Virus record (IMG/VR): IMGVR_UViG_3300025759_000019
Span: 1 to 39,247 of that record
From: a virus
Strand: one strand, 5' to 3'
DNA: 39,247 nucleotides
Shown: positions 1 through 39,247 of the stretch, one piece after another
Layout: every line of letters starts with the position of its first letter
Position numbering within the stretch: position 1 is the first letter of the stretch
The notes under the pieces: generated by a model
The model's input: the letters and a program-made list of their open reading frames with translations, nothing else
What the model was told of the DNA's origin: nothing
Databases searched by the model: none
Program-made: the position numbers and the translations under genes

Positions 1-128
1 ACACCATAAGTTAACATCTTATTTGTCTTGGTGTTAATAACCTTTTTACATCTTGTTACTTTTAGATGTGGTTGATCCTTAAAATACCAATATACTTTAA
101 ATGTTAAATTTACGTGTTCGTAGTTCAT
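1..128 (-). CDS. Small hypothetical protein, N-terminal part (gene crosses the circular join)
   Basis: ATG at 128 reads leftward to base 1 and continues at 39120 down to a TAA at 39030-39032, giving 72 aa once the circle is closed. The full product is basic, with a C-terminal stretch GKYYKRHQLNKML. I do not recognise a named family. It is the last gene of the leftward array, 42 bp after the preceding gene. Its uninterrupted reading across the join supports a circular 39,120-bp unit. Confidence 0.6.
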   Translation of the reverse strand, partial: MNYEHVNLTFKVYWYFKDQPHLKVTRCKKVINTKTNKMLTYG

Positions 129-169
129 TTTCAATTAGTTATGTGATTGTGTGTTAACTATACACCATT

Positions 170-425
170 GTTAGCAACAATTGTTTATGTAGTCATATAT
201 GTTACCTTTTACATCAATAGTCTTTAAACTAACATCTTTGTCTACTAATTCATTTTTGTCATATTCATACCTTTTATTAAGGTCATACGCATACGAAACT
301 TCCAAAGGCTCTAATTCTGTAACAACAAATAATCTTTGTCCGTTAACCGTTTGGTTTATATCTATGATACTTCCTTTTCTAATAATCTCGCCTTTTCGGT
401 CTGTTAACACACAACTGTTGCTAAC
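170..425 (-). repeat. Cassette inverted pair (GTTAGCAACA type)
   Basis: Read on the coding (minus) strand, the leading box is at 412-425 and the trailing box at 170-183. They are complementary over 14 bp with one G-T wobble (core GTTAGCAACA/TGTTGCTAAC). The leading box lies inside the 171-476 gene and encodes V-S-N-S. The trailing box encodes the last residues C-C and the stop. Confidence 0.75.
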
Positions 426-476
426 AACGTTTATACCTAATAGCTCTGCTTGTTCTTTAATCGTTTCTCTAGTCAT
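171..476 (-). CDS. Small phage protein, cassette-associated chimeric ORF
   Basis: The product is 101 aa, soluble and beta-rich in appearance, with no signal or membrane segment. Residues 1-15 carry a KEQ element (TIKEQAELLG) followed by NVVSNSC, the segment encoded by the leading inverted box. The rest (GEIIRKGSIIDINQTVNG, then a Y-rich acidic region) resembles a small-protein type I associate with flavobacterial phages, function unknown. The stop codon lies inside the trailing box. ATG at 476 follows an AT-rich spacer without a clear ribosome-binding site. Confidence 0.7.
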   Translation of the reverse strand: MTRETIKEQAELLGINVVSNSCVLTDRKGEIIRKGSIIDINQTVNGQRLFVVTELEPLEVSYAYDLNKRYEYDKNELVDKDVSLKTIDVKGNIYDYINNCC

Positions 477-544
477 TTTTATAAGTTTTATTTATTAATC
501 AATATTTATTTCTATTTGTACGCTACTAGGCATACACAAGTAAC

Positions 545-716
545 GTTGTAAAACATAGCCTTACTTCGTCAATATTTTAGATAACCATCTATAACAGTGT
601 TTAAAACCTATTGCACATTCTAATCTTGCAGTGGTTTCTTTTTCTGTATAGTAAGTTTCTACAAAGTCTTTTAATTCAATGTTAGCTTCTTCTAATGTCG
701 GCAACGATTTCACAAC
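545..716 (-). repeat. Cassette inverted pair (GTTGTGAAA type)
   Basis: On the minus strand the leading box GTTGTGAAA (708-716) lies in the 561-860 gene and encodes V-V-K. The trailing box TTTTACAAC (545-553) lies just after the stop. They pair over 9 bp with one G-T wobble. Confidence 0.6.
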
Positions 717-860
717 ACCAGATAAAGCCAAATTTTTAACTAAAGTATGTATAAGTCCTCTGCCTTCTTGCAAAAGTATTTTATCACTTTCATCTCTGTC
801 ATCATCTAAAAGTTCCCATAATATTTCATCAATTCTAAATAATCCTTTTTTTAATTCCAT
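561..860 (-). CDS. Hypothetical protein, cassette-associated
   Basis: The product is 99 aa, helical and acidic at the N-terminus (LLDDDRDESDK). LALSGVVKSLPTLEEAN in the middle contains the GVVKS segment encoded by the leading inverted box. Near the C-terminus, ETTARLECAIGFKHCYRWL is a helix with two cysteines. No known domain is recognised. It is separated from the upstream gene by a 47-bp spacer of the array type. Confidence 0.65.
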   Translation of the reverse strand: MELKKGLFRIDEILWELLDDDRDESDKILLQEGRGLIHTLVKNLALSGVVKSLPTLEEANIELKDFVETYYTEKETTARLECAIGFKHCYRWLSKILTK

Positions 861-906
861 TGTTTTGTTATTTTTTATTCATTAAAAATCAGTCCTTATC
901 CATCAC

Positions 907-1030
907 GTTAGCCACAATTAAAACCCTTAATATGGTTTTCTATATCCAGTTTTATATCATCAGGATGTGCATGGCTTTCTAAATCTACATACTCGCAAAA
1001 GGTTTTTAACAGTTCACGTTGTTGGCTAAC
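907..1030 (-). repeat. Cassette inverted pair (GTTAGCCA type)
   Basis: On the minus strand, leading box GTTAGCCA (1023-1030) and trailing box TGGCTAAC (907-914) are a perfect 8-bp complement. The leading box encodes V-S and the trailing box encodes the final C-G and stop of the 908-1162 gene. Confidence 0.75.
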
Positions 1031-1162
1031 ACTACCTATACGTAATTGCTCTTCAACGCCATTTAATTTGTGCAGTAATTTAGATTCTGCTTTTATAGAT
1101 ATTTCACCCATATTTTGAAGATGTAATACCTCGTATCTTAATTCTTTAATCTTGTCTTTCAT
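908..1162 (-). CDS. Hypothetical helical protein, cassette-associated chimeric ORF
   Basis: I place the start at ATG 1162 (MKDKIKELRYEVL, 84 aa). A longer frame opens at 1222, but its first 20 codons run through the inter-cassette spacer seen before several other genes. Residues 1-38 look like a coiled helix. EEQLRIGSVSQQRELL contains the leading inverted box, and GFNCG plus the stop comes from the trailing box. Function unknown. It shares EQL....VSQQRELL with the gene at 3174-3416. Confidence 0.65.
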   Translation of the reverse strand: MKDKIKELRYEVLHLQNMGEISIKAESKLLHKLNGVEEQLRIGSVSQQRELLKTFCEYVDLESHAHPDDIKLDIENHIKGFNCG

Positions 1163-1211
1163 TTTTGTTATCTTTAGTTTTAAATTCACGCAACTACGCA
1201 TAGCCTTGTCC

Positions 1212-1392
1212 GTTGTACACAATTAAAGGGTTTAGTGTTTTAAAGTTCCCTATATAAATCATACATTTCTTCTTTAGTATTTATTTGCTCATCGTCAACT
1301 ATGTATTTTTCATTCTCATTTTCAAAGCCAAGTAACCAATCCTCAAAGTCTTTAGTGTATTTGCCCTTTAACAGTTCGCTTTGCTGTACAAC
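1212..1392 (-). repeat. Cassette inverted pair (GTTGTACA type)
   Basis: On the minus strand, leading box GTTGTACA (1385-1392, inside the 1240-1527 gene, encoding V-V-Q) and trailing box TGTACAAC (1212-1219, after the stop) are a perfect 8-bp complement. Both boxes differ from the GTTAGCCA pair of the next cassette in the same positions. Confidence 0.75.
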
Positions 1393-1527
1393 ACCGTATA
1401 ACTTCAATTGCTCTTTTAGGTATTCTTGCAAGCCCCATCGCAAATTATTTTCGGCTTCTTTTCCTCGTGGGTTATTACCATTTAACAACACGTCTTTTAT
1501 AAATTTAATGGTTCTATCTTCTGTCAT
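1240..1527 (-). CDS. Hypothetical protein, cassette-associated chimeric ORF
   Basis: The product is 95 aa. The N-terminal half (GNNPRGKEAENNLRWGLQEY) runs into LKEQLKLYGVVQQSELLKG, which spans the leading inverted box. The C-terminal half is acidic (DFEDWLLGFENENEKYIVDD). There is no signal or membrane segment. ATG at 1527 follows AACTTAATAAACA, a spacer ending shared with several genes of the array. Function not recognised. Confidence 0.7.
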   Translation of the reverse strand: MTEDRTIKFIKDVLLNGNNPRGKEAENNLRWGLQEYLKEQLKLYGVVQQSELLKGKYTKDFEDWLLGFENENEKYIVDDEQINTKEEMYDLYREL

Positions 1528-1578
1528 TGTTTATTAAGTTTAGTTCCAAATTTACGCAACTGAAAGTTATACAATTAC

Positions 1579-1859
1579 GTTGTACACAATTAAAAAATAT
1601 CGTGTAGGTGGTCGCTTTCAAAGTTCATTCCTCCTAAATCTTCTTTGTTAGGTGGTTTTATTATTCCATCAGGTTTAGGTTTCCAATCAGGGAAAACCAT
1701 TTTAAAATCTTTAATTGCATCCCTTACCATGCTCGGTACGTAAGTGTGTCTACCATCTGCATATCGGATAGCCATCCAAATGGTTTCCTCAAATGCGTGT
1801 TTTAGCTTTTCTATTTTCTGTTTATCTGTCATAATGATATTTTTTAAAAGATGTACAAC
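1579..1859 (-). repeat. Cassette inverted pair (GTTGTACA type) enclosing a whole gene
   Basis: On the minus strand, leading box GTTGTACA (1852-1859) lies upstream of the 1590-1832 gene and trailing box TGTACAAC (1579-1586) lies just after its stop. They are a perfect 8-bp complement enclosing the complete ORF. Confidence 0.75.
1590..1832 (-). CDS. Hypothetical phage protein, whole-gene cassette
   Basis: The product is 80 aa. The central segment WMAIRYADGRHTYVPSMVRD is distinctive and familiar from small phage proteins, but I know no function. The tail is proline- and acid-rich (WKPKPDGIIKPP). Unlike its neighbours, the complete ORF lies between the two inverted boxes. The start is ATG 1832. 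Confidence 0.7.
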   Translation of the reverse strand: MTDKQKIEKLKHAFEETIWMAIRYADGRHTYVPSMVRDAIKDFKMVFPDWKPKPDGIIKPPNKEDLGGMNFESDHLHDIF

Positions 1860-1862
1860 ATT

Positions 1863-1893
1863 ATATAAAAGGCATTAAAACGACCTTTTATAT
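1863..1893 (-). repeat. Inter-cassette hairpin with conserved loop
   Basis: Ten-bp perfect arms ATATAAAAGG (1863-1872) and CCTTTTATAT (1884-1893) flank an 11-nt loop, CATTAAAACGA on the plus strand. The same loop occurs at 3137-3147 between different arms. The hairpin sits between the trailing box of one cassette (1899-1907) and the leading box of the next (1852-1859), giving a 56-bp site with two nested arm types. Confidence 0.65.
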
Positions 1894-1898
1894 TTAGC

Positions 1899-2076
1899 GT
1901 TAGCCACAATTTTTAACTATCCTATTTTCAGGAGTTATATTAAGGTATTTGTGTATTTTTAAGGCTAATTCCCATTCTGTTTTTTCAATATCTTTATCTT
2001 GGTTTTGGTCTATAGTTGTATTAAACCATTGTCTAATGTGGTTCAGTTCGTTATCATAAAAAAAACAGTGGCTAAC
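1899..2076 (-). repeat. Cassette inverted pair (GTTAGCCAC type)
   Basis: On the minus strand, leading box GTTAGCCAC (2068-2076, inside the 1900-2196 gene) and trailing box GTGGCTAAC (1899-1907, containing its stop codon) are a perfect 9-bp complement. Confidence 0.75.
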
Positions 2077-2196
2077 ACGTTGTATAAGTAATTGCTCTTT
2101 ACTGTATAATTCAATTAGTTCAGCCCATTGCTCTTTTATTGGTAACGGTATATTATTCTCTGGCCAATGCTTGTCTATAAATTTTGGTATTTCCAT
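1900..2196 (-). CDS. Hypothetical protein, cassette-associated chimeric ORF
   Basis: The product is 98 aa. The N-terminal half (PKFIDKHWPEN, then LYSKEQLLIQRVSHC) ends with the KEQL-x4-VS element at the leading box. The C-terminal half (IRQWFNTTIDQNQDKD, ALKIHKYLNI) ends in NCG plus a stop encoded by the trailing box. No known domain is recognised. It is soluble by inspection. Confidence 0.7.
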   Translation of the reverse strand: MEIPKFIDKHWPENNIPLPIKEQWAELIELYSKEQLLIQRVSHCFFYDNELNHIRQWFNTTIDQNQDKDIEKTEWELALKIHKYLNITPENRIVKNCG

Positions 2197-2257
2197 TTTA
2201 TTTTTTATTAAGTTTAGTTATTAATTTCATCGTCGCAACTACTCATACAACATCAAC

Positions 2258-2286
2258 GTTATGATGCAATTAAAAAAGCACATAAC
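2258..2286 (-). repeat. Short 'empty' inverted pair (GTTATG type)
   Basis: On the minus strand, GTTATGTGC (2278-2286) and GCATCATAAC (2258-2267) pair with one bulged base across an 11-nt AT-rich loop. Both ends fit the GTT(A/G) and (C/T)AAC pattern of the cassette boxes, but no gene lies between them. I read it as an empty or degenerated cassette, or a separate hairpin after the 2305-2454 gene. Confidence 0.45.
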
Positions 2287-2304
2287 AAAGGCTATAAATA
2301 ATAA

Positions 2305-2454
2305 CTACTTATAGATTGTTAAAATTTGGCTTTTGTGTATAATCAACAAATCACCCTTTTGCTTAAATTCTATAAAGTTCTCGTCTATATCCCATTCTTT
2401 CCAACTTTCAATGTATTGGTGTGTTGTTCCGTAATTTGTTCTAATACTGTACAT
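2305..2454 (-). CDS. Small hypothetical protein (49 aa)
   Basis: ATG at 2454 reads to TAG at 2305-2307. The product begins MYSIRTNYGTTHQYIESW and has a hydrophobic end (GDLLIIHKSQILTIYK) that could be a beta-strand pair. It fills the space between the 1900-2196 and 2552-3064 genes and follows an AAAACTTAATAAAT leader like its neighbours. Function unknown. Confidence 0.5.
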   Translation of the reverse strand: MYSIRTNYGTTHQYIESWKEWDIDENFIEFKQKGDLLIIHKSQILTIYK

Positions 2455-2551
2455 ATTTATTAAGTTTTGTAATTATTAATCCGTTACTATTCATAGCCAA
2501 ACCGTTGTAAATAATAAAAAAAAGCCACCTGTAAGTACGGCTTACTCATAT

Positions 2552-3064
2552 CTAAAAATGAGTACAAATATATTTAACTTGAATTGGTTCAAGTCTAAAA
2601 TACTCTCCTCTTACCCTAAACTCATTGTAAAGATTGTGTAACTTTTTTTCAATATCATAATTCCAAACCCTAACCATTTCTATACTTGGTTTTTCGCTTT
2701 GTAAAGTTCGCTCTCTAACTTTAGGATTTACGCTCTTACCTATTTTATATAAACCATTATGTTTATCTTTCATTAAATAAGTTTTTGTTTTAATATCATT
2801 ATCAACTGAATTATATTGTTGTCCATTTACAATGCCATTTTCCCAATTTAAAATAACTTCATCTGTTATTAAATATTTATTCCTTGTTTTTTTAATAAAA
2901 TCTTTTTTACATCGTTTTTGTACGGCTCTTTTAGATATACCTAATTTTATTGCAGTTTCTCCAACAGTATAAATTTTATTATCTTTTACATTATCACCTT
3001 CTAAAAGTTGTATTTTAAGTTCTAAAAGTTGTATTTTAAGTTCTAAAAGTTTATTATTTTCCAT
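2552..3064 (-). CDS. HTH plus T5orf172/Mug113 (GIY-YIG-like) protein
   Basis: The product is 170 aa. Residues 1-22 hold a heptad repeat (LELKIQL twice), probably a coiled coil. Residues 32-75 resemble a MerR/excisionase-type HTH (YTVGETAIKLGISKRAVQKR). Residues 94-168 match the T5orf172/Mug113 type of GIY-YIG-superfamily domain: TYLMKDKHNGLYKIGKS, arginines near 117-119, and GEYFRLEP. The family occurs in phage proteins with HTH or KilA-N-like partners; a DNA-binding or nuclease role is inferred. The whole gene lies within one inverted-box cassette. Confidence 0.7.
   Translation of the reverse strand: MENNKLLELKIQLLELKIQLLEGDNVKDNKIYTVGETAIKLGISKRAVQKRCKKDFIKKTRNKYLITDEVILNWENGIVNGQQYNSVDNDIKTKTYLMKDKHNGLYKIGKSVNPKVRERTLQSEKPSIEMVRVWNYDIEKKLHNLYNEFRVRGEYFRLEPIQVKYICTHF
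3001..3050. repeat. 21-bp tandem repeat, about 2.4 copies
   Basis: The 21-bp unit at 3001-3021 recurs identically at 3022-3042, followed by 8 bp of a third copy. It encodes the 7-residue repeat LELKIQL near the N-terminus of the HTH/GIY-YIG-like protein, so copy changes stay in frame and lengthen the coiled coil by one heptad. Confidence 0.8.
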
Positions 3065-3128
3065 TTTGTTTTAGTTTTATTTGCCTTACGGCATTTGCAT
3101 TCCTTTTTTTTACAATTCACAACACTAC

Positions 3129-3155
3129 CTAAAGCACATTAAAACGATGCTTTAG
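3129..3155 (-). repeat. Inter-cassette hairpin with conserved loop
   Basis: Eight-bp perfect arms CTAAAGCA (3129-3136) and TGCTTTAG (3148-3155) enclose the 11-nt loop CATTAAAACGA, identical to the loop of the hairpin at 1863-1893, where the arms are entirely different. It lies between the trailing box at 3163-3170 and the leading box at 3115-3123. Confidence 0.65.
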
Positions 3156-3162
3156 CTTTAAC

Positions 3163-3290
3163 GTTAGCCACAATTAATTGCTATAATTTTCTAAAAAGTC
3201 ATCTACATTTGCCTCATCGTGTCTTGCATACATTTTATCTTCTTCCATATATTTAGCAAACGCAATTAACAGTTCACGTTGTTGGCTAAC
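3163..3290 (-). repeat. Cassette inverted pair (GTTAGCCA type)
   Basis: On the minus strand, leading box GTTAGCCA (3283-3290, inside the 3174-3416 gene) and trailing box TGGCTAAC (3163-3170, just after its stop) are a perfect 8-bp complement. Confidence 0.75.
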
Positions 3291-3416
3291 ATTGTGTAAC
3301 AATAATTGCTCTTTACTGTAATCTTCAATCGCCTGTATAATGTCTTGCAATTCTGTAATATCAAATTCATCAAAGAATCCATTATAATTTTCACTTAAAT
3401 ACTTTTCTGCATCCAT
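3174..3416 (-). CDS. Hypothetical protein, cassette-associated chimeric ORF
   Basis: The product is 80 aa and strongly acidic. DYSKEQLLLHNVSQQRELL spans the leading inverted box and closely matches the corresponding part of the 908-1162 product. The flanking parts (N-terminal NYNGFFDEFDITELQ, C-terminal EEDKMYARHDEANVDD) are unrelated. Function unknown. Confidence 0.7.
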   Translation of the reverse strand: MDAEKYLSENYNGFFDEFDITELQDIIQAIEDYSKEQLLLHNVSQQRELLIAFAKYMEEDKMYARHDEANVDDFLENYSN

Positions 3417-3464
3417 ACTTGTTATATTTAGTTCTTAATCCACGCAACAATTGTTACACTTTCC

Positions 3465-3741
3465 GTTGTGCGTAATACTAATGCACTAATGTTACATAAA
3501 CTCTATCGTTTAGTCTAAATTTACCTTTCATAGAACTATACTGGTAAGGTAGTCTTAGGTTTAATATACCGCTATCAGTATCAGAGGTAGATGCAATTCC
3601 TTCTACTTTGAATTTTAATTCTTCATCTTGTGTTTTGTTTGCAATATTTTTTAATTCACTAATAGCTGTGTTTTTAGTTATTTCGTGATTGCAAAGTTTT
3701 TCAATAATTTCTTCTATTCTCATAATCGTACTACGCACAAC
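3465..3741 (-). repeat. Cassette inverted pair (GTTGTGCGTA type) enclosing a whole gene
   Basis: On the minus strand, the leading box (3728-3741) begins GTTGTGCGTA and the trailing box (3465-3478) ends TACGCACAAC. They pair over 14 bp with one G-T wobble. They enclose the 3478-3723 gene. Confidence 0.75.
3478..3723 (-). CDS. Hypothetical protein, whole-gene cassette
   Basis: I start at ATG 3723 (MRIEEIIEKLCNHEITKN, 81 aa). A frame opening at 3738 would translate the inverted box itself. The N-terminal half is helical; the C-terminal half (ILNLRLPYQYSS, KFRLNDRVYVTLVH) looks beta-rich. Its last codons overlap the trailing box. No family recognised. Confidence 0.65.
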   Translation of the reverse strand: MRIEEIIEKLCNHEITKNTAISELKNIANKTQDEELKFKVEGIASTSDTDSGILNLRLPYQYSSMKGKFRLNDRVYVTLVH

Positions 3742-3907
3742 ACTATATATAATTAATAGCCTGTGTTGTGCTTGTTTTAAAGGCTGTTAAGTGTTTAATA
3801 ATTTAGTTTTTAAATAGATAGTAATCGCTTATTTACGGCTACTAATCATATATTTTAACGTTAGCAAACATTAAAACGCACAATAACAATATGTATAAAT
3901 AATAAAA

Positions 3908-4096
3908 TTACTCATCATATACCCATTTAATAACTTCTACTATCATTCCACTCCCTGTAATAGCACAACGCCATTCAGTACATTTTTCATTAGCACAAGC
4001 ACATCTAAATAAGTGCCTTTCTTGTCCATCAGAACAAAGTGCTATTACATCTTTTCCTTTAATTGGTAGTTCCATATCCGTAATTTTACTATTCAT
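3908..4096 (-). CDS. Small cysteine-rich protein, possible zinc binder
   Basis: From ATG 4096 the product is 62 aa (MNSKITDMELPIKGKDV). An upstream ATG at 4126 in the same frame would add 10 residues and overlap the preceding ORF, so I prefer 4096. Cysteines in CSDGQERHLFRCACANEKC followed by TEWRC could form a zinc ribbon. It is reminiscent of small phage proteins with a WRxxITG motif. A 184-bp stretch to the next gene holds a degenerate cassette site, with CATTAAAACG at 3869-3878 and GCACAACAC/GTGTTGTGC arms at 3735-3743 and 3763-3771. Confidence 0.6.
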   Translation of the reverse strand: MNSKITDMELPIKGKDVIALCSDGQERHLFRCACANEKCTEWRCAITGSGMIVEVIKWVYDE

Positions 4097-4106
4097 ACAT
4101 TTAACG

Positions 4107-4211
4107 TTACCAACTTCTAAAACCATAAAGATTTATCATTATTGCAAACAGTGTTAAAACTATTATGGTAGATATTATTAATACTTTTACTTGTAGTGTT
4201 AGATTTTTCAT
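4107..4211 (-). CDS. Single-pass membrane peptide (34 aa)
   Basis: ATG 4211 reads to TAA 4107-4109. The start MKNLTLQVKVL is followed by a hydrophobic segment (LIISTIIVLTLFAIMI) and a short polar tail. It begins 2 bp after the HTH-like gene ends, consistent with cotranscription. No function is assigned. Confidence 0.45.
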   Translation of the reverse strand: MKNLTLQVKVLIISTIIVLTLFAIMINLYGFRSW

Positions 4212-10725: not shown

Positions 10726-10772
10726 CGGATGGTAATATGGTTAGTGGCTTTTCGCCATTAATTATATTTAGT

Positions 10773-11575
10773 GTTACCCACTGTTATTTTTGAGCGGTGG
10801 CAAATTAATTTGATAAAATTAAAATATGATAGATTTAAGATTAGGTGATTGCCTTGAAGTAATGAAAACAATTGAAGATAATAGTATTGACGCTATTATA
10901 ACAGACCCACCTTACGGAACGACTGCCTGTAAATGGGATAGTGTAATTGATTTTGATTTGATGTGGGAACAACTGAATAGAATAATAAAACCTAATGGTG
11001 CAATAGTTTTATTTGGTAATGAACCCTTTAGCAGTGTTTTAAGGGTTAGTAATATAAAAAATTACAAGTATGATTGGGTTTGGGATAAAAATAAGCCTAC
11101 AGGTATGCTAAACGCTAAAAGACAACCATTGAGAAGGTTTGAAAATGTAATGGTGTTTTATAAAAAGCAATGTACTTACAACCCACAAAAAACAATAAAC
11201 CCTAATGGACCAGAAAAAAGAAGCCTGTACGCTTACAATAGAGAAAATGAAGGTGGTGAAACAACAGGCGAAATAAAACAAGGTGGTGTTTCTTCTGATT
11301 ATGAAGCGGATAAATTACTGCCTGTTAATATACAAGTTTTCAAAAAACCTAATAAACCAAAACACCCAACACAAAAGCCTGTTTTATTAATGGAATACTT
11401 AGTAAAAACGTACACAAACGAAAACGAAACGGTTTTAGATTTTACTATGGGAAGTGGAACAACTATGTTAGCTTGTAAAAACCTTAATAGAAACGGAATA
11501 GGAATAGAGAAAGACCCGAAATACTATGCCGTTGCAGTAGCACGTGTAGATGGCTAAAAAATAATTGTGGGTAAC
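10773..11575 (+). repeat. Cassette inverted pair (GTTACCCAC type) enclosing the N6 methyltransferase
   Basis: Leading box GTTACCCAC (10773-10781) and trailing box GTGGGTAAC (11567-11575) are a perfect 9-bp complement flanking the whole 10826-11557 gene. The sequence differs from every pair in the minus-strand array but keeps GTT(A/G) and (C/T)AAC ends. A TGGC/GCCA hairpin lies upstream at 10745-10757. Confidence 0.75.
10826..11557 (+). CDS. N6-adenine-type DNA methyltransferase, beta class
   Basis: The product is 243 aa. DPPYG at 27-31 (catalytic motif IV) precedes DFTMGSGTTMLA (205-216, SAM-binding motif I), the order of the beta class. DPPY points to adenine N6 methylation, using S-adenosylmethionine. 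HPTQKP (around 182) is the conserved segment before motif I. No partner endonuclease is visible, so it is an orphan, probably protecting phage DNA. It sits in a cassette bounded by an inverted pair, suggesting separate acquisition. Confidence 0.8.
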   Translation: MIDLRLGDCLEVMKTIEDNSIDAIITDPPYGTTACKWDSVIDFDLMWEQLNRIIKPNGAIVLFGNEPFSSVLRVSNIKNYKYDWVWDKNKPTGMLNAKRQPLRRFENVMVFYKKQCTYNPQKTINPNGPEKRSLYAYNRENEGGETTGEIKQGGVSSDYEADKLLPVNIQVFKKPNKPKHPTQKPVLLMEYLVKTYTNENETVLDFTMGSGTTMLACKNLNRNGIGIEKDPKYYAVAVARVDG

Positions 11576-11623
11576 GTTAAAATGTATGGTTAGTTGCGTG
11601 AATAAAAACTAAACTTAATAAAA

Positions 11624-11881
11624 ATGAAAATAAATAAATTTCCAACAACTGAAAAAGAAGTGATAGCCTTTGAATTAAAACACAAAGACAACTACAAAGA
11701 ACCAAAAAAATGGGATACCATTGATGACATAATAAATAGTAAGCAATTAACTATACATAGTGTTAGCAAATCGTTTTTAAAAATACTTAAAACCTTTATA
11801 AATAAGCGATTAGTTTGGTTTAGTATTGTAGCTATTTGGTGTGCCTTTTGGGTGTTTATGATTTTTAAATATGTTTGCTAA
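11624..11881 (+). CDS. Small C-terminally anchored membrane protein, cassette-associated
   Basis: The product is 85 aa. A polar lysine-rich N-terminus (TEKEVIAFELKHKDN) leads to SKQLTIHSVSKSF, where GTTAGC of the leading box encodes V-S. One membrane segment follows (LVWFSIVAIWCAFWVFMIF), then KYVC and a stop from the trailing box. The leader (AACTAAACTTAATAAAA) matches those in the minus-strand array. Function unknown. Confidence 0.65.
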   Translation: MKINKFPTTEKEVIAFELKHKDNYKEPKKWDTIDDIINSKQLTIHSVSKSFLKILKTFINKRLVWFSIVAIWCAFWVFMIFKYVC

Positions 11882-11882
11882 C
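11762..11882 (+). repeat. Cassette inverted pair (GTTAGCAAA type)
   Basis: Leading box GTTAGCAAA (11762-11770) and trailing box TTTGCTAAC (11874-11882) are a perfect 9-bp complement. Further out, AACTATA before the leading box also matches TATAGTT after the trailing box, so the pair has inner and outer arms. Confidence 0.75.
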
Positions 11883-39043: not shown

Positions 39044-39247
39044 TTATTTTCTCTATCTTAACAAGCATCTTATTTAATTGATGCCTTTTATAATACTTAC
39101 CACCAACATTAAAACCACGCACACCATAAGTTAACATCTTATTTGTCTTGGTGTTAATAACCTTTTTACATCTTGTTACTTTTAGATGTGGTTGATCCTT
39201 AAAATACCAATATACTTTAAATGTTAAATTTACGTGTTCGTAGTTCA
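39030..39247 (-). CDS. Small hypothetical protein crossing the circular join (72 aa)
   Basis: The reading frame enters from the window start (ATG at 128) and ends at TAA 39030-39032; in this copy only the first base of the ATG is missing. The product starts MNYEHVNLTFKVYWYFKDQP and ends VKIEKINMPF. It is basic with no signal. Function unknown. The terminal repeat at 39121-39247 is the second copy of 1-127. Confidence 0.6.
   Translation of the reverse strand, partial: NYEHVNLTFKVYWYFKDQPHLKVTRCKKVINTKTNKMLTYGVRGFNVGGKYYKRHQLNKMLVKIEKINMPF
39121..39247. repeat. Terminal direct repeat, 127 bp, identical to 1-127
   Basis: Every base of 39121-39247 equals 1-127. The length is that of a common assembler word size, and a gene reads through the junction, so it marks a circular or circularly permuted genome rather than a biological repeat. 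Confidence 0.9.

Follow-up and report, generated by a model that had tools for sequence, protein, structure and literature searches.

A probable integron-type cassette array without an integrase in a flavobacterial phage, with attC-like sites that carry the starts of genes

Integrons are known for shuffling whole genes. They have been reported in Bacteroidota (PMC8618304), and possession of an IntI-specific domain is the accepted criterion for an integron integrase (PMC9668308). Closest to the present case are the clusters of attC sites lacking an integrase (CALIN) that Qi et al. (2023) described in phages, including the Polaribacter phage P12002L, one attC site of which was recombined by IntI1 in Escherichia coli (PMC9892861). 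Here we describe a locus in the IMG/VR virus record IMGVR_UViG_3300025759_000019, the whole 39,247-base length of which was analysed and is referred to as the window. With a probability of roughly 70%, judged from sequence comparisons, we interpret this locus as a CALIN-like, integron-type cassette array in a phage of Flavobacteriia, which would be served in trans by a host enzyme and in which gene leaders and gene bodies would be exchanged at the cassette boxes. The kind of system is known, since phage attC clusters have already been described for P12002L (PMC9892861). Indeed, P12002L belongs to the same phage group, has DNA methyltransferase cassettes and lacks an integrase. However, its study reports no coding sites, no leader/body fusions and no genes reversed relative to attC, all three of which are indicated here.

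The main array occupies the minus strand between about position 4105 and position 170, against the direction of the remaining genome. The initial annotation had assigned nine cassettes to positions 128-4110, each with a leading GTTR box and a trailing YAAC box complementary over 8-14 bp. All nine box pairs were located on the minus strand. In gene orientation, with R' denoting the leading box (GTTR...) and R'' the trailing box (...YAAC), the R' starts and R'' ends are 3741/3465, 3290/3163, 3123/2504, 2076/1899, 1859/1579, 1392/1212, 1030/907, 716/545 and 425/170. Complementarity in fact extends over 8-15 bp, and the pairs 3123/2504 and 716/545 need G.T. The array also starts at about 4105 rather than 4110, at a site that holds a whole small open reading frame (ORF), and two elements had been missed: a tenth unit, which is a gene-less hairpin at 2286-2258 on the minus strand, and a second array on the plus strand (10727-11882), with two cassettes around a DNA methyltransferase gene. 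The notion that the boxes change together, each with its own partner, was borne out, as the summed complementarity of own R'/R'' pairs was matched by 0 of 100,000 partner permutations. Exact pairs, counted from GTTR to YAACG at distances of 100-700 bp, with at least 8 bp and no G.T, number 6 in the array, compared to 0.165 on average and at most 2 in 1000 dinucleotide shuffles; other 4.2-kb segments of the genome contain 0-1. Shuffles of the same composition therefore do not yield the pairs, and each cassette has its own leading/trailing complementarity, as in an integron cassette array. The absence of an integrase, also proposed initially, was confirmed: no match to PF00589 was found anywhere in the 39-kb record, and the locus is thus not a complete integron with an intI gene adjoining the array.

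Each interval from an R'' to the following R' contains a second inverted repeat, L''/L', the arms of which comprise 14-19 bp and are 39-217 nt apart. Own arms have a mean score of 11.1, compared to 5.4 for swapped arms (maximum 9), and own L''/L' pairs, like own R'/R'' pairs, surpass every permutation. Pairing of R' and R'' thus bridges the gene, and pairing of L'' and L' bridges the site; this is the attC layout of a cassette array, and the inner repeat is present in each site. Across 143 viral sequences, 281 such units were found, compared to 3-4 in shuffles. The short form of the site, seen twice in the window, has the conserved loop TCGTTTTAATG; a pattern search detected this loop on a covarying stem both in flavobacterial genomes and in more than 80 IMG/VR loci. 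When 36 short sites are aligned, 9 of the 10 inner pairs display double compensatory changes, with 94% of the cells paired compared to 71% when shuffled. The de novo covariance model that the initial annotation had called for, R2, was built from short sites with the window's own sites excluded, and it finds two window sites, at 3117-3169 (plus strand, 59.8 bits, E 2e-10) and 1853-1905 (plus strand, 64.7 bits, E 1.6e-11). The P12002L record (L007) contains two sites of the present type, at 2041-2093 (E 2.6e-9) and 2940-2994 (E 1e-9); in the published study 2 attC per phage were chosen for the assay (PMC9892861), and its attC1 and attC2 may be these two sites.

The sites resemble class 1 and chromosomal integron attC sites in their YAAC/GTTR outer boxes with per-cassette partners, their inner arm pair, the better folding of one strand and a boundary at GTT that is defined by breakpoints. 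They differ in that the phage genes run against the canonical direction, that the strand asymmetry is brought about by G.T wobbles instead of an extrahelical base, that the loop may hold the beginning of a gene or an ORF in full, and that they are AT-rich. Since every body and every site has its own inverted-repeat ends, one might also regard the units as transposon-like and mobilised by a transposase. However, the ends vary between units, we noticed no duplicated targets, and the window revealed no recognisable transposase, although no search aimed at transposases was made. The common GTT/YAAC cores and the linkage to a tyrosine recombinase described below suit attC better, and we consider a transposon origin barely credible.

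In the cassette direction, class 1 attC sites read YAACA...CGTTR, whereas reading along the genes gives YAACG...TGTTR for the phage sites. Because the flanking bases are reversed with respect to class 1, and because host arrays compare accordingly, the canonical attC direction would by this sign be opposite to that of the phage genes. The canonical G|TT would then correspond to AAC|G in the phage, in agreement with the ends of shared units. Genes run along the YAACG...GTTR strand in 126 of the 128 viral intervals, that is, against canonical attC, so that the usual, non-strict expectation for a cassette array, with genes in the attC direction, does not hold in the viral loci. In host arrays, genes run against the YAACG...GTTR strand in 66 of 70 intervals. 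Nonetheless, under strand-neutral scoring, G.T in the arms favours this strand both in phages (567:103) and in host loci (323:66). As the same strand is favoured despite the opposite gene direction, the wobble asymmetry is a property of the folded DNA of the site and not of the mRNA. This bears on the view that the structures act at the RNA level, as leader hairpins or terminators of transcripts. The gene-strand folds of the sites are indeed the more stable ones, and some loops finish in T-rich stretches, as this view would have it. Yet host arrays display the asymmetry on the antisense strand, Rfam gave no match, and the box-bounded exchange of modules would be left without an explanation, which makes RNA-level structures highly improbable as the sole account.

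The initial annotation had placed the leading boxes in front of the genes, but most of them lie inside coding sequence, where they form junctions between a leader and a body. In seven units of the window the ORF starts inside a long site, the L' arm is coding, and the GTT of R' is a Val codon. Among 93 ORFs of viral loci with long sites, some of which belong to families that are not wholly independent, GTT is in phase 0 in 80 (p-value of 1e-25 against one third), and in 87 of the same ORFs a stop codon lies at most 40 nt before the R'' end. Start codons have been placed likewise, inside sites, in the GenBank annotation of Polaribacter phage P12002S. The gene-less promoter cassettes of the Vibrio superintegron (PMC11014356) are comparable insofar as they lack an ORF, like the unit at 2286-2258, and carry expression signals; here, in contrast, it is the site that gives the following gene its start codon and N-terminus.

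Leaders and bodies occur in different combinations. The leader of ORF 171-476 (MTxETIKEQAELLGINV) is found on different bodies in loci L034/L280/L281, L282, L283 and L284; its site (426-544) has 93% DNA identity in L034, where it is followed by a different body, and body 10 of the window carries another leader in L279, at 93% amino acid identity. Likewise, the leader of ORF 1240-1527 runs into another body in L285, with divergence right after GTTGTA. In L289, body 2 (of ORF 3174-3416) stands behind a different leader, and its boxes have changed from GTTAGCC/GGCTAAC to GTTAGCA/TGCTAAC, so that the two changes compensate each other over 120 bp. Related long sites were compared in 67 pairs; the sequence differs on both sides in 63, and the identity profile stays at about 0.9 up to GTT, is 1.0 at GTT, and falls to 0.70 at +4 and about 0.5 from +5. 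The reassortment of leaders and bodies would give rise to chimeric proteins, which may be produced and of consequence. As an observation in its own right, many bodies share a conserved opening behind R', such as CAACGAAGTGAACTGTTAAA (peptide VSQQRELL), for example in L006, in L005 and in the window (e.g. 3290-3260).

Such combinations could also arise without any site-specific enzyme, by homologous or illegitimate phage recombination at the 20-30 bp or so shared around L'-GTT and AAC-L'', the repeats being relics or having another role. The roughly 20 well-conserved bases before GTT in leader-sharing pairs could seed crossovers, and one deletion in L290 passes through short homology. Four findings argue against this: identity is already lost 4-5 bases from GTT, the two boxes of a body (R' and R'') co-vary although they are more than 100 nt apart, exchange on the trailing side requires only AACG in common, and every site has kept its own arms. 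We therefore regard reassortment without a site-specific enzyme as unlikely.

The initial annotation had predicted breakpoints at the boxes in related phages, and this is where the joins fall: whole cassettes are present or absent with breakpoints at the GTT/AAC cores, and joins occur at both boxes, in few recent events. The window segment 1578-1901, comprising a site and body 6, has an 89% identical counterpart in the IMG/VR locus L096, bounded by AAC|G at both ends. Six shared bodies are recent: three have retained the upstream site (L096, L064/L093 and L026/L047) and three have no site (L279, L289 and L097/L107), while the downstream site was kept in 0 of 6; where bodies are shared between phages, the break is at the trailing AAC|G end in every case. 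A crude breakpoint statistic over all homologous blocks is weak, with 21 AACG ends compared to 11 expected and 12 GTT ends compared to 13 expected, because most blocks represent ordinary phage homology; the unit-based analysis was used instead.

These data also bear on the assumption of ordinary cassettes in gene orientation, with recombination at the leading G|TT only and the site belonging to the preceding gene. Leader/body joins do fall at GTT, and L007 and L063 have sequence in common from TGTTGTATG onward. However, the fate of the sites around the six shared bodies, with the upstream site kept in three, the downstream site in none and the break at AAC|G, does not fit, nor do flanks that are the reverse of class 1 and host-array genes that run the other way. 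As none of the shared bodies has kept its downstream site, we abandoned canonical insertion at GTT as the sole explanation, and we rate cassettes of this kind as quite improbable. The initial reading of integron-type cassettes thus stands as far as the attC-like inner arms and the IntI1-active attC of a related phage (PMC9892861) are concerned, but not with respect to the classical gene-orientation cassette.

A likely source of the enzyme is found in the hosts. At least 16 flavobacterial genomes with such sites encode a tyrosine recombinase of 350-400 residues, a relative of which is present in 45 of 60 sampled Flavobacteriaceae genomes. The recombinase scores 206-211 bits against the integron integrase model TIGR02249, the cut-off of 265 not being reached; against NF040815 (cut-off 220), one of two proteins scores 236 bits and the other 214 bits. 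The match to IntI4 (PDB 2a3v) has an E-value of 6e-39. Both tested recombinases lack the IntI-specific insertion, as residues 182-238 of IntI4 face 16 residues and profile positions 180-240 of TIGR02249 are unmatched; an IntI domain near patch III is thus absent. Since all 14 control genomes match TIGR02249 as well (Xer family) when this search is used alone, it is the linkage to arrays, and not the TIGR02249 match, that we take as evidence. In the surroundings of 36 recombinase genes, the 3' side (206 kb) holds 93 sites and the 5' side (302 kb) 15, of which 14 come from two loci. Moreover, 90 of the 93 sites on the 3' side are in one orientation, whereas shuffled sequence gives 1. The recombinase gene is accordingly linked to a site array of fixed orientation, as an IntI-type gene would be. 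In Flavobacterium paronense, 12 sites are contained in the 9.7 kb adjoining the recombinase gene, and the box pairs covary from cassette to cassette.

The protein resembles both IntI (IntI4) and archaeal XerA/XerC-like recombinases in that it matches both models and has adjacent one-orientation arrays, but differs in lacking the IntI insertion, in an N-terminal extension of about 100 residues and in the position of the array 3' of the gene. The XerA/IntI-like recombinase and its 3' arrays represent a candidate integron platform without the IntI domain. The Flavobacteriaceae loci L255-L271 and L298-L317 show the recombinase with one-orientation 3' arrays, often at contig ends. Polaribacter glomeratus has both site types mixed in one array; in its locus L158 (1000-8000), a near-constant spacer unit of about 150 nt (GTTAGCGAAG...TTCGCTAAC) alternates with gene units, and short TCGTTTTAATG sites and long sites point opposite ways. 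Cellulophaga phage phi19:3 has a tyrosine recombinase gene, gp036, immediately behind its cassette array (L005, 4628-5884).

In the mechanism that we propose, each unit would consist of a site and a body. The site would be an attC-like single-stranded hairpin with an outer YAAC/GTTR pair and the inner arms L''/L', enclosing either the loop TCGTTTTAATG or some 100-200 nt in which the start codon of the gene and its N-terminal leader are encoded. The body would comprise R', the remainder of the gene and an R'' complementary to R'. Whole units of site plus body would move, being joined at the trailing AAC|G, which would be the canonical attC G|TT on the opposite strand. Exchange between leaders and bodies would take place at the leading GTT, where the box supplies a Val codon in frame, and would yield chimeric proteins. 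The enzyme would most likely be the host XerA/IntI-like tyrosine recombinase, acting in trans from beside chromosomal arrays of the same architecture.

Several points weigh against this interpretation. The service of the phage sites by this recombinase is suggested by likeness of architecture, yet most chromosomal sites near its gene have another sequence and another loop than the short phage sites, without TCGTTTTAATG. Exchange at R' would be unexpected for a canonical one-strand attC reaction if recombination takes place at R''. Both strands may be recombinable; either-strand recombination would explain exchange at both boxes, and cassette birth by another route might do so. Recent exchanges are few, with six informative body-sharing pairs, and the 67 pairs underlying the breakpoint profile are not independent of each other. 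The score by which units were detected included a bonus for G.T, the ratios of 567:103 and 323:66 being a recount without it. Lastly, a covariance model from nine class 1 attC sites gave no significant match in the window or at the P12002L sites; as the latter were missed too, this model says nothing on the membership of the window.

In gene order, the minus-strand array begins with a 218-nt site (3888-4105, from R'' GGTAAC to R' GTTATTGTGC, inner-arm score 19.6), the loop of which contains ORF 3908-4096 entirely. It is followed by a degenerate gene-less unit of 28 nt that ends in TTTGCTAAC at about 3860, and by an attC-like site of 118 nt (3742-3859) with arms ATATATGATTAGTAGCC and GGCTATTAATTATATAT, which is 73% like an intergenic stretch of phage phi19:3. 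Body 1 (3465-3741; R' GTTGTGCGTAGTAC, R'' GTATTACGCACAAC, 14 bp including one G.T) has the classical layout, its ORF (MRIEEII...) starting downstream of R'. The next site (174 nt, 3291-3464) provides a start codon and a 42-residue leader (MDAEKYLS...LLLHN) to body 2 (3163-3290), in which R' GTTAGCCA supplies an in-frame Val to the C-terminal part VSQQRELLIAF... before R'' TGGCTAAC. A short site of 39 nt with the TCGTTTTAATG loop (3124-3162), within the first R2 match, separates it from body 3 (2504-3123; R' GTTGTGAAT, ORF, R'' ATTTACAAC, one G.T). The protein of body 3 (2552-3064) has a weak HTH_17 and MUG113/T5orf172 (GIY-YIG-like) match, the sole recognisable domain of this array. The 217-nt site at 2287-2503 encloses a whole ORF of 49 residues (2305-2454), and the gene-less mini cassette at 2258-2286 is the hairpin GTTATGTGC-TTTTTTAATT-GCATCATAAC.

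Further along the minus strand, a site of 181 nt (2077-2257) with the leader MEIPKF...LLIQR precedes body 5 (1899-2076; R' GTTAGCCAC in frame, VSHCFF..., R'' GTGGCTAAC), and a second short site of 39 nt with the TCGTTTTAATG loop (1860-1898), within the other R2 match, precedes body 6 (1579-1859; R' GTTGTACA, ORF MTDKQKIEKL..., phrog_11947, R'' TGTACAAC). The remaining bodies all have R' in frame. Body 7 (1212-1392; R' GTTGTACA, VVQQSELLKGK..., R'' TGTACAAC) follows a 186-nt site (1393-1578, leader MTEDRTIKF...LKLYG), and body 8 (907-1030; R' GTTAGCCA, VSQQRELLKTF..., R'' TGGCTAAC) a 181-nt site (1031-1211) with a leader ending in VEEQLRIGS. The 190-nt site at 717-906 (leader MELKKG...LVKNLALSG), the first part of which is 83% identical to a P12002S site, precedes body 9 (545-716; R' GTTGTGAAA, VVKSLPTLEE..., R'' TTTTACAAC, with a G.T pair). 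Body 10 (170-425; R' GTTAGCAACAGTTG, VSNSCVLTDRKG..., R'' CAATTGTTGCTAAC) follows the 119-nt site at 426-544, with the leader MTRETIKEQAELLGINV. A tblastn search with one array protein against isolated phages gave no match, and a scan of genome contigs with the body 2 protein found no relative.

The second array, on the plus strand, starts with a 46-nt attC-like site (10727-10772), followed by a body with the DNA methyltransferase gene (10773-11575; R' GTTACCCAC, R'' GTGGGTAAC); the homologous methyltransferase of P12002L has the boxes GTTAGGCAC/GTGCCTAAC. A 186-nt site (11576-11761, leader MKINKFPTTE...LTIHS) then leads into the last body (11762-11882; R' GTTAGCAAA in frame, VSKSFLKIL..., R'' TTTGCTAAC).

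Bases 1-127 of the record recur as bases 39121-39247, and this terminal redundancy of 127 bases points to a genome that is circular or has redundant ends; the array directly abuts the assembly break. Terminase, portal and tail genes are present, and the source is a small virus of marine-type bacteria. Its host is probably a flavobacterium, because the methyltransferase gene of the window is 85% identical to one of Flavobacterium phage snusmum6, and because the sites and genes of the window are similar to those of Polaribacter and Cellulophaga phages.

Gene-less R'-loop-R'' hairpins also occur in L091 (at about 2436), L093 (about 2055) and L100 (about 4782), besides 2286-2258 of the window. Those of L091, L093 and L100 are capped by the same TCGTTTTAATG loop as the inner arms, and both kinds of stem thus exist empty. 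These hairpins are possibly empty or ancestral cassettes, and the occurrence of empty box-TCGTTTTAATG-box hairpins beside gene-filled ones bears on the open question of cassette birth.

For coding attC sites with leader-body fusions, no description was found in the literature, with subscription papers and preprints outside the scope of the search, and the same holds for the Flavobacteriaceae platform. We tentatively propose, at somewhat less than even odds, a site-specific system that assembles proteins from attC-encoded leaders and cassette bodies joined at the Val box, driven in trans by a new integron-like platform of Flavobacteriaceae. If the recombinase makes the leader/body joins, the recombination site would become part of the protein, and shuffling would create new proteins, in viruses and with high modularity. 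The Flavobacteriaceae platform would, moreover, widen the range of integron-like systems to a group that is invisible to the standard IntI-domain criterion.

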